A DNA stretch of 36,330 nt, taken from the IMG/VR virus record IMGVR_UViG_3300037200_000156, positions 1-36,330 of that record. The stretch is one strand, 5' to 3'. Under the pieces are notes generated by a model, which made no database searches, had not been told where the DNA came from, and saw only the letters and a list, made by a program, of their open reading frames with translations. Below are positions 941 through 14,077 of the stretch, piece by piece. A program made the translations under genes and the position numbers. How positions within the stretch are numbered: position 1 is the stretch's first letter; every line of letters begins with the position of its first letter. Source of the DNA: a virus.

Positions 941-3277
941 TTGAAATTAGCAACCAAAATACATCTTAATAAGTTTTTGCCACGGACTTATCAATTGCCA
1001 ATACTTGATGCTATTCTCAATAAAGGATATAAACGAGTATTGGCAATTCTACCACGCCGTGCAGGTAAAGATATTGTTGGTTTTAATCTATGTATACGAG
1101 CATGTTTACAAAAAGTCTGTACGATTTACTATATATTCCCAACCTACAGTCAAGCGCGCAAGGTTATCTGGCAGGGAATAACTAATACTGGTGAACAGAT
1201 AATAGATTATATACCAGAAGAAATTATCAGCTCTAAGAACTCTCAAGAAATGTCCATCCAATTTACCAACGGTTCACGTCTTCAGTTGGTGGGCTCAGAC
1301 AACTACGATTCTTTGATGGGAACCAATCCCCAAGGTATTGTCTTCAGTGAATATGCTCTACAAGATCCACGGGCATATCAATATCTTAGACCGATTCTCA
1401 CGTCAAACGAGGGTTGGGCACTATTTCTAAGTACACCACGAGGAAAGAATCATCTCTTTGAATTATATGAGATCGCTAAACAACATGACTCCTGGTTCTG
1501 TTATAAACTTACCGTTGAAGATACCAATCATATTTCCTTACATGAGATTGAAAAAGAGCGCCATGATGGAGTAATGTCTGAAGATTTAATTCAACAAGAA
1601 TATTATTGTTTCCCTAGTGACCAACAAGTATTAACTTCTATGGGATGTAAGGGTATTGAGTCTATTGTTCCCAATGATATGGTTGTTTCTCATTCCGGTA
1701 GATTGAGAAAAGTGCTGGATATTATATCGCGCGAATACAAGGGCGATATGTATCAGATTAGCTCTTATGGTTCATGTGAGCCAATAATATGTACTCCTGA
1801 TCACCCAATACGTGTATATGATAGATTGACTCAGAAATATACTTGGAAGAAAGCTAAAGAAATTGATAATGAAGATAGATTGGTATTTCCTAAGATGACG
1901 TTGGGTGATAATGAAATATTGAGAGAAGAATTATGTATGTTGCTGGCCTGGTATATTACCGAAGGCAGTTGTTTTAAGAACGGTGTTCAATGGACGGTCA
2001 ACAAAGAGGAATCTCACATTGTAATAGGTTACTTAGTAAGGCTCGGAATATCTTTTGATGAACAAATTAATGGAAGTGTTATAAATATAGTAATTAATTC
2101 TGTTCAACTCGTTGATTTTTTTAAATCGACTTGCGGCTTACAGGCCAACAATAAGCGTATTCCCTTTAATTTAATTGGTGGACATGAAGATAGATTCTTT
2201 CATGAACTTATTAAAGGTGATGGGTGTCATAATATATCTAAGGGTCATGAGAGATATTGTTATACGACAGTTAGTAAGACACTTGCATATCAAGTTCAAT
2301 TACTAGCTAATAGTCTTGGTCTCGGATATGCGACAGGCATATCTAAACGTGAGGCATATAAGGGTAAAATACAGGGTAGGAATGTTAATTGCCAAGAATC
2401 TTACCAGGTAAATATTTCATTCCCAGGTCTTAGAAGTGGTGGAAAATTAATTCGAGCTAGGAACTGTATAGCCGCTAAAATTACCGACATCACCATCTCT
2501 AAATTTGAAGGAACTGTTCACAATATCAAAGTTCAATACGATGAAAGTTATTTAATTGGGGGAAGAGCTGTTCATAATTGTTCGTTTGAATTGGGTGTAG
2601 AAGGCTCATATTATAGTAAATACATAGATAAGCTTCGATTACGCAACCAGATTGGTGAAGTTCCATGGGAGCCGTCATTTAAGACACACACGGTATGGGA
2701 TTTGGGAGTCAGAGACTCAACTACTATTATATTCTTTCAGATCATTGGACAAACTATAAAGATTATTGATTGCTATGAAAACTCTAAGCATGGTCTTGAG
2801 CATTATATTCAAGTGCTCGACACAAAACCTTATAAAAACTCGTATGGTAAACACATAGCACCGCATGATATTAGAGTGCAGGAATTCGGTTCAGGAATCA
2901 CCAGAATCGAGAAAGCTCGCCAATTGGGTATAAGGTTTACCATTGCAGAAAATATTGCTGTAATGGATGGAATTGAGGCCGTTAGATCAACATTGGCTAA
3001 GGTATGGATAGATGAGCGTAATTGCAAGCCATTAATTAAGGCATTGGAGAACTATCGTCAAGAATATGATGCCAAAAGAAAGATATATAAGAATCATCCA
3101 TTGCATGATATTCATTCTCATTTTGCTGATTGTATGAGATATCTTGCAATATCATTGCCTAAGACACGCGATGGTTTATCTTCTCCTGAAGATCTAGATA
3201 AGCGTTATCGCGATACTGTTTTGGGTACTAATTCTAATATGCCATCTGTCTTTCGAGATGATTTACCACCTTATTAA
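941..3277 (+). CDS. terL: terminase large subunit, interrupted by an intein
   Basis: ATP-driven DNA packaging motor and headful nuclease. The precursor is 778 residues; removing the intein (residues 223-546) leaves about 454, normal for TerL. Visible motifs are a Walker A variant LPRRAGKD (37-44), Walker B GIVFSE (132-137), an LSTPRGKN coupling motif (163-170), and after the intein a nuclease domain with VWDLGVRDST and a C-terminal HDIHSHFAD segment. The exteins join as QQEYY-CSFELGVEG, the usual entry to the nuclease domain. TTG 941 is the only plausible start, since an in-frame TGA lies at 932-934; its Shine-Dalgarno is weak. The small subunit candidate is at 35191-35709. Confidence 0.95.
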   Translation: MKLATKIHLNKFLPRTYQLPILDAILNKGYKRVLAILPRRAGKDIVGFNLCIRACLQKVCTIYYIFPTYSQARKVIWQGITNTGEQIIDYIPEEIISSKNSQEMSIQFTNGSRLQLVGSDNYDSLMGTNPQGIVFSEYALQDPRAYQYLRPILTSNEGWALFLSTPRGKNHLFELYEIAKQHDSWFCYKLTVEDTNHISLHEIEKERHDGVMSEDLIQQEYYCFPSDQQVLTSMGCKGIESIVPNDMVVSHSGRLRKVLDIISREYKGDMYQISSYGSCEPIICTPDHPIRVYDRLTQKYTWKKAKEIDNEDRLVFPKMTLGDNEILREELCMLLAWYITEGSCFKNGVQWTVNKEESHIVIGYLVRLGISFDEQINGSVINIVINSVQLVDFFKSTCGLQANNKRIPFNLIGGHEDRFFHELIKGDGCHNISKGHERYCYTTVSKTLAYQVQLLANSLGLGYATGISKREAYKGKIQGRNVNCQESYQVNISFPGLRSGGKLIRARNCIAAKITDITISKFEGTVHNIKVQYDESYLIGGRAVHNCSFELGVEGSYYSKYIDKLRLRNQIGEVPWEPSFKTHTVWDLGVRDSTTIIFFQIIGQTIKIIDCYENSKHGLEHYIQVLDTKPYKNSYGKHIAPHDIRVQEFGSGITRIEKARQLGIRFTIAENIAVMDGIEAVRSTLAKVWIDERNCKPLIKALENYRQEYDAKRKIYKNHPLHDIHSHFADCMRYLAISLPKTRDGLSSPEDLDKRYRDTVLGTNSNMPSVFRDDLPPY
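1607..2578 (+). mobile_element. intein with DOD-type (LAGLIDADG) homing endonuclease, in TerL
   Basis: A 324-residue in-frame protein intron. Block A begins at Cys1 (CFPSDQQVLTSMGCKG). Block B is CTPDHPIRV, with the conserved T-x-x-H. The two endonuclease motifs are LLAWYITEGS and LIKGDGCHN, resembling LAGLIDADG motifs with acidic residues E and D. Block F/G runs through GTVHNIKVQYDESYLIGG to AVHN, followed by Cys+1 of the extein. All splicing residues (Cys1, His of block B, His-Asn, Cys+1) are present, so it should splice. The endonuclease also keeps its acidic residues and may be active. It sits just before the nuclease domain of the terminase. Confidence 0.95.
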
Positions 3278-7121: not shown

Positions 7122-7493
7122 ATGGCAAAACGTTACCACAACTCAATGCGCAGCATAGAGCATAATATGGAGCGTCACAATGACGAACGCAAGCATGATG
7201 CTGGAAGGGAACGATTCGGTTCATATCCTTACGACAGGCAGAATACTCGTCCAATGGATGAATACTATGCAGGTTCAGATTCACGCCGCAGGCAAGAACT
7301 TGAAGATGGTGGGATGATTCATGAAGATTATCGCGCAATTGCTAATCTGCCACAAGAAGTAAGAATACAGCCTTATCCTAAAACTGGCCCTTATTTACCA
7401 GAAGGCTTAGATGATACTTTACGCGGAGTTGATCAGCAAATGGATTACGATGACAATCAGCGTCGTAGGAACTTTTTCCCCAAGAAAGTATAA
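7122..7493 (+). CDS. Arg/Asp-rich hypothetical protein, paralogue of 7784-8227
   Basis: A 123-residue charged protein with start ATG 7122 after AAAGGAG. Its C-terminal half shares EYYAGSDSRRRQELEDGG, IANLPQE and a GLDDTLRG segment with the protein at 7784-8227 (EFYAGVDPRRRQEIADAG, MANLPRQ, IDDTRRG). The two clearly derive from a duplication. Tyr/Arg/Asp-rich composition and the head-gene position suggest a virion or DNA-associated protein, but no function is known to me. Confidence 0.75.
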   Translation: MAKRYHNSMRSIEHNMERHNDERKHDAGRERFGSYPYDRQNTRPMDEYYAGSDSRRRQELEDGGMIHEDYRAIANLPQEVRIQPYPKTGPYLPEGLDDTLRGVDQQMDYDDNQRRRNFFPKKV

Positions 7494-8949: not shown

Positions 8950-9048
8950 TGTTGAAAAATTATGGAGAGTTCTGATACTATCCCATTCTATTATTTTATA
9001 TTTGCTCTTTAGTGAAGTCGTGACAAAATGTCACGGGAGGATCAGTTG

Positions 9049-9510
9049 ATGAATAATATAGAAGAATTTATTAGAGAAAGTAATAAGATTGAAAATATAC
9101 ATAGAAATCCTACCCAAGAGGAAATAAGTGAATTCAAAAGATTTATAGCTTTGGACAGTGTAAGTATTGAAGATCTTGAAAGATTCGTAAAAATATATGA
9201 ACCTACGGCATATTTGAGAGATAGTTACTCACATTGCAATGTAAGGGTAGGTTCATATTACCCACCATTTTCTGGCCCTCAAATAAGGTCTGATCTAATT
9301 AAAATTCTCAATTGTGAAAAAAGTCCATTTAGTCTTCATGTGGAATACGAAAAACTACATCCATTCTCAGATTGTAATGGCCGATCTGGCAGGGCTCTTT
9401 GGGCGTGGAAGATGAAGCAGTTTCCTTTGGGTTTTCTTCACCATTTTTATTATCAGACTTTGGGGGGGTTTTATGAATCGCAAGAAGACTATTTCTGCAA
9501 AAAAAGCTAG
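9049..9510 (+). CDS. Fic-domain protein
   Basis: A 153-residue single-domain Fic protein; most family members AMPylate or otherwise modify protein hydroxyls. The motif is H104-PFSDCNGRSGR (consensus HPFx-D/E-GNGRxxR) with Cys109 where Gly is usual. SNKIEN at residues 11-16 fits the S/T-xxx-E-G/N inhibitory motif, so an N-terminal regulated (class II) arrangement is likely. ATG 9049 follows GGGAGG; 9028 is a possible alternative. It lies between terminators and head genes and could modify host targets or defend against other phages. Activity with Cys109 is uncertain. Confidence 0.88.
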   Translation: MNNIEEFIRESNKIENIHRNPTQEEISEFKRFIALDSVSIEDLERFVKIYEPTAYLRDSYSHCNVRVGSYYPPFSGPQIRSDLIKILNCEKSPFSLHVEYEKLHPFSDCNGRSGRALWAWKMKQFPLGFLHHFYYQTLGGFYESQEDYFCKKS

Positions 9511-10931: not shown

Positions 10932-11005
10932 GGTACTATAGTTCAGCTGGCTAGAACATCGGATAAATAATCAGAAGGTCGTGGGTTCGACTCCCGCTAG
11001 TACCA
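10932..11005 (+). tRNA. tRNA-like gene, Ile-type body with abnormal anticodon loop
   Basis: The cloverleaf is complete: acceptor GGTACTA/TAGTACC (7 bp), D stem GTTC/GAAC, T stem GTGGG/CCCGC with TTCGACT loop, discriminator A. The anticodon stem TCGGA/TCAGA has one G-A mismatch. The 7-nt loop is TAAATAA, so the invariant U33 is A and the nominal anticodon is AAT, which would read Ile AUU but is not normal in bacteria. No CCA is encoded (ATCA follows). It may be decayed, or its function may not be decoding. Confidence 0.8.
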
Positions 11006-11259: not shown

Positions 11260-11496
11260 ATGGCAATAACTACCACATCTACTTTGCCGTCACCAGTACA
11301 GCAAAGTTTCAGTTATAAGCTTTTATCGGTGCCGGTCCCCAATATGATCCATAAAATACCTGCGATGAAAAAGAATATGCCCCGTAATGGTGGTAATACT
11401 CTTAGAATGCGTAGGTATAATCCGTTGTCTACAGCTATGGTACCACTAGGAAATTCTGGTGTTACGCCTCCTGCTCAAAATCTGACAGCAGTGGAT
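11260..11496 (+). CDS. capsid exon 1 (N-terminal 79 residues)
   Basis: Encodes the N-terminal arm (MAITTTSTLPSPVQQSF...) and the MPRNGGNTLRMRRYNPL segment typical of N4gp56 proteins. The exon ends at GTGGAT; translation beyond it into the intron gives 20 spurious residues and a stop at 11559. Confidence 0.9.
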
Positions 11497-14077
11497 AGAC
11501 TTTATGTCCACGTTAAATTTTCTCTGATAGACTTGGAAACCGTAGTGGCAATAGGCTAACCGGCAACAAGGGGCAAGAATGAATAAACCTAATTGTGATA
11601 AATGTAATGTTTTAATAACTTGGGGACTTAATAATAAACATTTCGGCTATTTTAATAAATATATTACCTGTGAAGATTGTGTTATTAAGCTCGAAAATTT
11701 ATTAAAGATTGAAAAAGAAATCACAATAGATAATTTCTTTCAGCCTGAACGCAGCAAGCGAGAAGACGCAACTAATTGTAGATGGAATGAAAGATTTAAA
11801 GAAAAATGTAATTCCAAAAATAAGTATGCGATGCGGTGCTCTGAACATTGTGGAAACACAGTGAGTGAGGCTCAATAAACCTTACCGCCTAGAAATAGGT
11901 CATAAAAAGTAACAGAATTGATAGATGCGAAGATCTCGTTTTACGGTAAACGTGCCGTAACAGTTTATTTGGCATAAGACGTACGTACAAATAAACGAGC
12001 AGGTTAATTTGGCCTGCTTTAAACCCACTCTGATTGACTTGGACCTCCTTATAGGAAGACAAGGCGGAAGCGAAAGCACCGTGAACGACTAAGTGAGAGG
12101 GCGCGAAAGCGAAGCGATAGTCTGAACTCTATAGCAATATAGAGAGGAATCTCCGAAGAGGGAATCCCGCTCGAAAGAGTCATAAAAGTAACAGATTTGC
12201 ACTTTACAAAACCAAGACCCTAAAATGGATGGGGTCTATAAATTTTCTCTGATTGACTTGGAAGCCTACGGCATTTGCTAAGGTGACAGGGGCCAAGGAC
12301 GAGATTTAAACATTATGTTTCATAGGATGAAGATGCCAGCGAGAATTAAGTTTACGAATAGATTCAAGACACTCTTGACGAATAGCTATAGCTTCAGAAG
12401 AAAGCTTATTGCTACCCAATTGCGTGTTATAAGTCTTTCTGAACTTAATCATAATTTCGCATTGTTCTTTTTTGATAACCAGATATGGAAGCAATTGTTC
12501 GCACAGATCCAACAATCGATCTCCGGTAGCTGTCCAAGTGAAAACTTCTCTCTCGAATTTTCTACTAGAAGTAGATCGACAACGAGCAGAAGAAGTTCCG
12601 CTGAAAACAGTATCAATCCAATCGAGCAGTCTCACATCAGTGTTATCAATTTTAAGAAGCCCTCTGTAATGCTCGGTGACATATCCGTCGCCAGCCTTCT
12701 TGGGCAACTTACACATAAAGAAACAACCTTCTCCATCGACAATTCCAGCCATATAAGCCAAATCAATTGGTCTATATTCGGCAGGAACATAATCTTTAGA
12801 TCTTTTATAGTATTTTCTTCTTTCTTGCATAGTATCCTTAATAAAGTTAAGCAGTATTACTATATAAGTATAAATGAAGCAGAACTATTTGTCCAGGCTG
12901 AACGACTAAGTGAGAAAACCCTATTTAGGGATGCGATAGTCTGACCTCCAATCGAAAGTTGGAGAGGTGAATCCGAAGAGGTTTGCCCGCCTAGAAATAG
13001 GTCATAAAAAGTAACAGAATTGGTTCTTAATGAATGTGCGGCTCGTTTGGGTGTTTCGCTAAGGCAAACAGAAGATCAGTTGACTCGTGATATGTTAGCC
13101 TCCACGGCAAGTTTTATTAACTGTACAGGGGGTGTCGATGGCGACAATCCTACAGAAATAACAGCTGCCGATGTTAGTACAGTTGTTCGGGCTTTACTGA
13201 ATAACAATGCTTACACCATCATGGATAACATTGAAGGTGAAGATAAGTTCGGCACAGCTCCAGTTCGTGATGCATATTTTGCATTATGTTCAACTCAACT
13301 AACTGGCAGCTTGGATGGCGTTCCTGGATTTATTCAGAAGAATCAATATCCAGCTCCAATGAATGCGTTGCGTTCAGAATGGGGCAGCATTGGGAATCTC
13401 AGATTCTTGATTTCGTCTATTGGTTCTGTGTCTCAAAATGCATCTGCTAATGGCAATGATATTTATAATATCTTCTGCGTTGGCATGGAGGCTAAAATGT
13501 TAGGTCTCCTTAAATTTCTTCTGATTGACTTGGAAACCCCACGGGGCGACAGGGCGGAAGTAGCACTCGCTACACCGTGAACGACTAAGTGAAGAAACAC
13601 CGAAAGGTGAAGCGATAGTCTGAACTCTATGGAAACATAGAGAGGAATCTCCGAAGAGGGAATCCCGCCACGAAAGTGGTCACGAAAGTAACAGAATTGT
13701 ACGCATGTATTGAGCAGGATGGTTATTCTGCTTCGTTCATAAACAAATATGTGAACGTTAAATCTTCTCTGATTGACATGGAAGCCCAAGCTTAAGAGCG
13801 GGTGACATGGGGCAAGCGAAAGCAGCCTAAACGACTGAGTGAGAAGACCTCGAGAGAGGATGCGACAGTCTGAACACTACGGATAACGTAGTGAGGGAGA
13901 TTCGAAGAAGTTTCCCCGCCACATGAGTGGTCACAAAAGTAACAGAATTGATATAGACCGCCAATTTATGACGGACCTTTGGCATTAAATGCTTCAGTTG
14001 GCTATAAATTTGCGGAAGTGCCAAGGATTACTAATGATCTCTGGGTTACCAATCTACGTTGTACATTAGTATCTTAA
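11260..14077 (+). CDS. major capsid protein, N4gp56 family, split by five group I introns
   Basis: Exons: 11260-11496, 11921-11947 plus 11979-12004 (with a 31-nt interruption between), 12200-12221, 13023-13493, 13700-13740, 13951-14077; total 951 nt, 316 residues. Each boundary fits a group I P1 helix ending in U.G, an intron ending in G, and reading-frame continuity. The joined protein reads LTAVD-IDAKISFYG-TYVQINEQV-TLQNQDP-VLNECAARLG, matching the N4gp56 pattern (YGD..E.TD...EDPVL) without gaps, and ends PRITNDLWVTNLRCTLVS. Forms the icosahedral shell (HK97 fold by family). Expression needs all introns, and the 31-nt element, to be removed or bypassed. Unspliced ORFs in the region are not separate genes. 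Confidence 0.9.
11497..11920 (+). ncRNA. group I intron 1 of capsid gene (424 nt)
   Basis: P1 is exon GTGGAT with internal guide GTCCAC, last pair U.G. A P10 AUAGA/UUUAU with exon 2 is possible. The conserved start TTCTCTGATAGACTTGG and end GTAACAGAATTG, with a P9 hairpin CCTA-GAAA-TAGG, match the other four introns. The core is the most diverged of the five and holds an insert in the P6 area that encodes a small ORF. It interrupts the codon series after Asp79. Confidence 0.9.
11579..11878 (+). CDS. intron 1-encoded zinc-ribbon-like ORF
   Basis: A 99-residue reading frame. Its first 55 residues (MNKPNCDKCN... YITCEDCV) come from an insert not present in the other introns and have two Cys-x2-Cys pairs spaced like a zinc ribbon. 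The remaining residues are translated intron core and may be non-functional. AAGGGG precedes the ATG, but this is also conserved intron core. It lacks LAGLIDADG, GIY-YIG or HNH motifs. Confidence 0.4.
   Translation: MNKPNCDKCNVLITWGLNNKHFGYFNKYITCEDCVIKLENLLKIEKEITIDNFFQPERSKREDATNCRWNERFKEKCNSKNKYAMRCSEHCGNTVSEAQ
11948..11978 (+). other. 31-nt intervening element in capsid exon 2 (core-less group I-like mini-intron or bypass)
   Basis: Located exactly between the Gly codon of ...ISFYG and the Thr codon of TYVQINEQV. It breaks frame (31 nt) and has an in-frame TAA (11975-11977). P1 UUACGGU/GCCGUAA has 7 pairs ending in U.G at the exon boundary. A P10 pairing ACGU (11950-11953) with exon ACGU (11979-11982) is possible. 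The element ends in G. A 9-bp stem GTTTATTTG/CAAATAAAC (11963-11971 with 11988-11996) spans the 3' boundary. There is no space for a catalytic core. Internal GTAACAG matches the 3' ends of the real introns. Confidence 0.75.
12005..12199 (+). ncRNA. group I intron 2 of capsid gene (195 nt)
   Basis: P1 is exon GCAGGT with guide GCCTGC, ending U.G. The conserved start CTCTGATTGACTTGG, the P7 strands GACTA and TAGTC, the P9 stem CTC-GAAA-GAG and the 3' end GTAACAGATTTG are all visible. It is a minimal ORF-less ribozyme, closely similar to intron 4, and is flanked by very short exons (26 nt upstream, 22 nt downstream). Confidence 0.92.
12222..13022 (+). ncRNA. group I intron 3 of capsid gene (801 nt)
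   Basis: P1 is AGACCCT with guide GGGGTCT, ending U.G. A weak P10 GUUC/GGAU is possible. The ribozyme halves are 12222-12305 and about 12885-13022, with a large insert in the P6 loop that carries an antisense homing endonuclease. The 3' half keeps GACTAAGTGAG, GCGATAGTCTGA and a P9 CCTA-GAAA-TAGG. Confidence 0.92.
12306..12830 (-). CDS. LAGLIDADG homing endonuclease, antisense inside intron 3
   Basis: 174 residues. The motif LAYMAGIVDGEGCF (residues about 24-37) is a LAGLIDADG helix with the acidic residue, followed by a typical beta saddle (YRGLLKIDNTDVRLLDWI) and a LLPYLVIKKEQCEIMIKF segment. With one motif it should act as a homodimer and cut the intron-less capsid gene to spread the intron. 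It runs opposite to the intron, with its own AAGGATACT ribosome site and an AT-rich upstream region on the minus strand, so it can be expressed without capsid transcription. Confidence 0.93.
   Translation of the reverse strand: MQERRKYYKRSKDYVPAEYRPIDLAYMAGIVDGEGCFFMCKLPKKAGDGYVTEHYRGLLKIDNTDVRLLDWIDTVFSGTSSARCRSTSSRKFEREVFTWTATGDRLLDLCEQLLPYLVIKKEQCEIMIKFRKTYNTQLGSNKLSSEAIAIRQECLESIRKLNSRWHLHPMKHNV
13023..13493 (+). CDS. capsid exon 4 (central 157 residues)
   Basis: Largest exon, beginning VLNECAARLGVSLRQTEDQL and ending FCVGMEA. It carries the core of the shell protein. The apparent start at 13020 belongs to the intron end, not a real initiation site; the exon joins exon 3 in frame as DP-VLNE. 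Confidence 0.92.
13494..13699 (+). ncRNA. group I intron 4 of capsid gene (206 nt)
   Basis: P1 is GGAGGCT with guide GGTCTCC (one G.U inside, last pair U.G). The core shows CTTCTGATTGACTTGG, GACTAAGTGA and GATAGTCTGAAC, a P9 stem CCAC-GAAA-GTGG, and the end GTAACAGAATTG. It is ORF-less and shares a long identical stretch with intron 2 (about 29 nt around GAATCTCCGAAGAGGG), so one probably arose from the other. Confidence 0.93.
13741..13950 (+). ncRNA. group I intron 5 of capsid gene (210 nt)
   Basis: P1 is GTTCAT with guide GTGAAC, ending U.G; P10 AUAU/AUAU with exon 6. The core shows TTCTCTGATTGACATGG, GACTGAGTGAG and GCGACAGTCTGAAC (P7 pair changed in both strands). P9 is CCAC-ATGA-GTGG, without the GAAA loop of the others. 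ORF-less. The exon joined upstream is only 41 nt. Confidence 0.93.

Follow-up and report, generated by a model that had tools for sequence, protein, structure and literature searches.

To our knowledge, all group I introns carry their own catalytic core, and the papers we found agree. For phage group I introns, neighbours separated by a small exon have been reported, as has exon skipping (PMC11878797), and in the ribosomal bypassing of T4 gene 60 the landing codon matches the take-off codon (PMC5009743). The IMG/VR virus contig analysed here (IMGVR_UViG_3300037200_000156, positions 1 to 36,330; this whole stretch of 36,330 nucleotides (nt) is called the window) contains a major head protein (capsid) gene interrupted by five full introns and one 31-nt insert. 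This insert, hereafter the mini-intron, is probably a non-autonomous group I-type intron that would be excised in cis by the core of a full group I intron located 26 nt downstream, hereafter the partner.

The mini-intron and its partner in the window

Introns were mapped by a purpose-written spliced protein-to-DNA alignment, which recovers all six insertions in the window. The PHROG 1357 profile (major head protein) is matched by the spliced capsid protein at E 1.4e-33, and a match to PF25209 (E 2e-6) likewise places the interrupted gene in the capsid family. The region around the insert is organized as follows:

11921–11947, + strand: exon 2a, 27 nt, encoding IDAKISFYG, its final U at the 5' splice site of the mini-intron (spliced alignment, relatives)
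11948–11978, + strand: core-less mini-intron, 31 nt, with the terminal (omega) G at 11978 (spliced alignment, related loci)
11979–12004, + strand: exon 2b, the 26-nt microexon between mini-intron and partner (spliced alignment, relatives)
12005–12199, + strand: partner at site 96.2, a full group I intron and proposed source of the catalytic core (alignment, P3/P7 covariation)
11941–11947/11954–11960, + strand: mini-intron P1, UUACGGU/GCCGUAA, with U.G at the splice site (in the minimum free energy (MFE) fold)
11950–11953 with 11979–11982, + strand: mini-intron P10, ACGU of the internal guide sequence with ACGU of the 3' exon
11963–11971/11988–11996, + strand: tail helix of 9 bp across the 3' boundary, GUUUAUUUG with CAAAUAAAC in the microexon

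In the spliced alignment, the insert separates the codons of FYG and TYV. Intronless close relatives encode IDAKISFYGTYVQINEQVTLQNQDPVLNE without interruption (69 loci have no insert at all), which fixes the exon ends by data; the FYG/TYV junction, placed at 11947 and 11979 in a preliminary description made from the window alone, is therefore no guess. The mini-intron has the P1 with U.G, the P10 and the terminal G of a group I intron, but not the conserved core P3–P8 with the G-binding site in P7, for which 28–41 nt, the size range of these elements, leaves no space. Positions 11948–11978 are a genuine insertion of 31 nt that combines a group I splice-site signature with the lack of a core; for this lack, the mini-intron by itself is not a group I intron, yet its features indicate that it works like one. 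Folding of 11936–12030 gives the mini-intron P1, the tail helix and the partner P1 (z = -3.35), with the tail helix ending 8 nt before the 5' splice site of the partner. The 7-bp P1 ending in U.G, the ACGU/ACGU P10, the terminal G and the 9-bp stem across the 3' boundary had all been noticed in the preliminary description; the stem is borne out by the fold and by its recurrence, and the core-less design recurs in 92 loci and exceeds shuffled controls (see below).

The anatomy of a group I intron could be traced in the partner:

11997–12004/12012–12019, + strand: P1, GAGCAGGU with GCCUGCUU (sequence; MFE fold)
12024–12030/12095–12101, + strand: P3 (covariation; sequence)
12038–12041/12060–12063 and 12046–12048/12054–12056, + strand: P4 and P5 (sequence)
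12064–12067/12079–12082 and 12102–12104/12109–12111, + strand: P6 and P8 (sequence)
12087–12091/12118–12122, + strand: P7 (covariation; sequence)

Among about 50 full introns of the partner family, P7 occurs as GACUA/UAGUC, GACUG/CAGUC and GACUU/AAGUC, and P3 forms 6.4 of 7 pairs compared with 5.1 after shuffling. The partner and its relatives have the pseudoknotted P3/P7 core. It was also observed that long partners at site 96.2 (e.g. L296, L317, L326) have a P1 loop with a conserved stretch like ATCTTTGAAATTTCTTGGTTTTGTAAGCAGATA, which is not present in short partners such as that of the window.

Recurrence and covariation among related phages

Viral contigs were scanned for the same insert, and 207 capsid loci were then aligned. 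The scan pattern demanded the GGT...GCC part of P1 and downstream exon words, but not P10, the tail, the terminal G or the partner. Besides the window, 92 loci have a mini-intron of 28–41 nt at residue 88, phase 0, in about 70 distinct versions, and identical copies were recovered from separate metagenome assemblies. Over the 69 distinct pairs of mini-intron and microexon used for the statistics, the lengths modulo 3 take all three values (30, 23 and 16 pairs), an in-frame stop lies inside 65 mini-introns, and the terminal G is present in every one. A generic scan for the P1 hairpin only returned mostly unrelated matches, a problem solved by adding exon context to the pattern, and seeming introns of 19–20 nt in L239 and L267 proved to be small indels. 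L267 also has, near position 7329, a 4-nt insert, TATG with its final G, at codon 118, where L342 and L286 have an intron; this insert is either an intron remnant or an error. The genome collection yielded three relatives only. One of them, L357, with an 87% identical capsid protein, lies on a contig of a Parachlamydiaceae metagenome-assembled genome, making this family a possible host unless L357 is a binning contaminant.

The helices of the mini-intron are maintained through compensatory changes in both P1 and P10. The first six pairs of P1 are intact in all 69 pairs, with UAC/GUA in 65 and UAU/AUA in 4. Position 3 of P10, which on the exon side is a silent codon position, is Watson-Crick in 69 of 69 (CG 47, TA 10, GC 6, AT 6), compared with a match of 0.50 +/- 0.04 after shuffling. 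A tree built excluding the codons tested shows 15 changes of the exon base and 15 of the guide base, concordant in every independent pair.

The tail helix averages 8.9 contiguous bp (3.7 +/- 0.24 after shuffling) and begins 3 nt past P1 in 67 of the 69 pairs. In 67 of 69, too, the best complement of the tail ends exactly 8 nt before the 5' splice site of the partner, where the partner P1 starts. This 8-nt rule holds for partners at sites 96.2, 104.2 and 116.2, i.e. 26, 50 and 86 nt downstream, and is obeyed within one base by L274, whose partner is at a fourth site, 104.0. Tails pair at 7.4–8.0 of 8 positions with their own partner site, but at only 1.6–4.8 with that of another class. MFE folds place the mini-intron P1, the tail helix and the partner P1 next to each other in 59 of 69 pairs, exactly so in the window.

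A full intron follows downstream in each of the 91 testable loci: 86 have it at one of the above sites, 2 gave it after extension, and in 3 the partner starts before the contig ends. The remaining locus of the 92 ends after 50 nt and was left out of this count. Of 65 complete genes, 33 have no intron besides the mini-intron and its partner.

Proposed mechanism and its rivals

As the partner is always present, is often the only other intron, and has its position matched by the tail, its core probably acts on the mini-intron in cis. Helices, partner rule and terminal G can be read directly from the sequences; docking and the order of events are what we infer from them. In a first round, i) the core of the partner would receive the mini-intron P1, flanked by a stack of the tail helix and the P1 hairpin of the partner roughly at the position of an ordinary group I P2, and ii) GTP would cleave after GGU, the freed exon then attacking after the terminal G of the mini-intron. 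With the mini-intron gone, iii) the tail helix would dissolve, leaving the partner P1 free to dock, and iv) in a second round the same core would excise its own intron. One ribozyme would thereby remove two introns flanking a microexon. P2 elements of other group I introns occupy the region between P1 and the core; since the tail helix and the partner P1 sit between the mini-intron P1 and the core in the manner of P2, removal of the mini-intron before the partner is suggested, this order being the least certain part of the model.

Several observations weigh against this scheme. Introns at partner sites occur without a mini-intron (L213/L238, L227/L242, L369), and therefore the partner does not need the mini-intron. 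The GGU...GCC columns of P1 are uninformative, as most copies came from scans requiring them, although this part of P1 is also present in copies recovered with an unrelated pattern. A 3' splice site within the loop of a helix 5' of the core is unusual. Furthermore, the Rfam RF00028 cut-off of 50 was not reached in the window, where the best score is 26.3 bits (E 6e-4, at 13465–13642), nor by any intron in 20 loci; the identity of the core therefore rests on P3/P7 covariation and anatomy. Spliced, complementary DNA-like contigs of a strain bearing the mini-intron were sought and none was found. L052 and L077 share about 96% identity with spliced L290 and L306, but they have GGC at the site and a block of differences there, and are intronless strains rather than transcripts.

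The rival that survives best, though unlikely, is removal of the mini-intron either in trans or by just any full intron nearby, the downstream one being nothing special. P1 and P10 suffice for a group I core to recognize a splice-site pair, and the window has five cores; however, the downstream partner is constant, the tail is tuned to its position, and 33 genes have no other intron. Thus, of the first explanation listed in the preliminary description, the core-less group I-type intron is strongly supported, whereas splicing in trans by one of the five neighbours gives way to splicing in cis by the intron immediately downstream.

Far less probable is removal by a protein nuclease and ligase, or by another RNA-processing system, with the helices as a recognition signal. 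It draws on the excision reaction being a prediction from sequence, but P1 with U.G, P10 and the terminal G are the signature of group I introns, and every partner is a group I intron. Slightly less probable still is bypassing of the insert by ribosomes, known from T4 gene 60 and the yeast mitochondrial inserts. The size is comparable, a hairpin lies at the take-off edge and a glycine codon precedes the gap; against this, the take-off codon is GGU whereas the last triplets are AAG, TTG, ATG, TAG and others, never GGN, so that the matching landing codon is missing, and bypassing leaves the P10 covariation, the terminal G, the obligatory partner and the tail helix unexplained.

The chances that the insert is a sequencing or assembly error in, or marks the death of, a gene on a metagenomic contig with repeated introns, or that a +1 frameshift at GCA-UAA-G, which resembles a shifty stop, adds about ten residues, are negligible, because mini-introns recur in 92 loci of many data sets, with about 70 versions, all length frames, identical copies across separate assemblies and conserved exon reading frames, while the other copies, of 28–41 nt, have other sequences and stops and such residues are absent from the proteins of relatives. 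Bypassing, the +1 frameshift and error had been listed as options in the preliminary description; they are rejected in view of the roughly 70 versions in three frames, the lack of a matched landing codon and the covariation of P10 and tail.

Origin and genomic setting

The mini-intron is probably the remainder of a full intron at the same site, which may have shrunk when a core close by became able to serve it. Such descent is plausible because the relative L233 (46% identical) carries a complete intron of 650 nt (543–1192) at this site, in which the guide AAAATGTGTGCCGTA is the same and P10 is UGU/ACA; this intron is likely the ancestral form. The idea that the core had been deleted through GTAA/GTAA microhomology proved superfluous, since mini-introns of the 104.2 and 116.2 types do not have GTAACAG; the likeness consists mostly of P1, linker and tail, and such a deletion history is unproven.

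Presence or absence of the mini-intron changes 42 times on the tree. Between L290 and L052, 15 of the 33 nucleotide differences fall within nt 254–317 of 921 (averages have small n), and in this pair as well as in L306 versus L077 synonymous differences concentrate in codons around the cassette of mini-intron, microexon and partner. This suggests that the three move as a unit by co-conversion. LAGLIDADG proteins usually cut at the intron site. The possibility that the mini-intron shields against the element's own homing endonuclease was considered and found unsupported; by eye, those open reading frames (ORFs) of partners that were read look like LAGLIDADG proteins.

The rest of the capsid gene in the window comprises:

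11260–11496, + strand: capsid exon 1, residues 1–79 (spliced alignment)
11497–11920, + strand: full intron at site 79.0, its 99-aa ORF having no Pfam match (spliced alignment, domain search)
12200–12221, + strand: capsid exon 3, TLQNQDP (spliced alignment)
12222–13022, + strand: full intron at site 104.0; an antisense ORF in it (12306–12830, minus strand) is LAGLIDADG-like
13494–13699 and 13741–13950: the other two full introns (spliced alignment)

The 3' ends of the five full introns read GTAACAGAWTTG. Elsewhere in the window, the terminase large subunit (941–3277) contains an intein with a LAGLIDADG domain (PF14890, PF14528), a small Fic/DOC-family protein (PF02661) is encoded upstream of the capsid region (9028–9510), and a tRNA-Ile-like gene (10932–11005) has the anticodon AAT, which is unusual for bacteria.

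Comparison with known systems

A natural core-less group I intron was not found in the full-text literature, most subscription papers being beyond reach, so that its absence is not proof; within the same scope, the earlier remark that phages offer no described counterpart still holds. These data point to a likely natural class of 'satellite' group I introns, i.e. splice-site modules of about 30 nt that would have lost their ribozyme and be processed by a neighbour through programmed P1 exchange. If true, core and splice sites have been separated in nature, in an essential phage gene and across many lineages, giving a group I counterpart of group III introns and a natural shared RNA splicing engine. 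A minimal, RNA-only system would then allow a direct test of the transition from self-splicing introns to shared machinery, and natural spliceozyme designs would be at hand. Annotation is also concerned, as an insert of 28–41 nt with a stop is usually labelled a frameshift, an error or a dead gene.

With the phage group I introns of T4 td, Twort and Bastillevirinae, the mini-intron shares the P1 with U.G, P10, the terminal G and a location in a phage gene, but they have their own core whereas the mini-intron is core-less and dependent on a neighbour (PMC11878797). The capsid gene of Faustovirus has seven introns termed spliceosome-like, with AA/TG borders (PMC6247863). Full introns of the window's family often begin with AA and end with TG; by analogy, the Faustovirus introns may be group I introns overlooked by Rfam. 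The inserts bypassed in T4 gene 60 and in mitochondria are likewise short, of comparable length and within coding sequence, but they act in translation with matched or near-matched codons and have neither P10 nor a partner intron (PMC5009743). Euglenoid plastid group III introns and twintrons (PMC8393795) resemble the mini-intron in being degenerate, having lost domains and needing external help; however, group III introns stem from group II introns, and twintrons are nested or tandem introns with a core each, whereas mini-intron and partner have a single core and a coding microexon of 26, 50 or 86 nt between them. In split, trans-spliced organellar group I introns, parts of a group I intron are also physically separated, but there one intron is fragmented, while here one core faces two complete splice-site pairs (PMC3873408). 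The nearest analogue is provided by the engineered spliceozymes, in which a group I ribozyme excises a core-less intron elsewhere in an RNA; these are artificial, act in trans and have targets of about 100 nt, whereas the system described here is natural, would act in cis and carries the guide inside the substrate intron (PMC4094466, PMC4509937).
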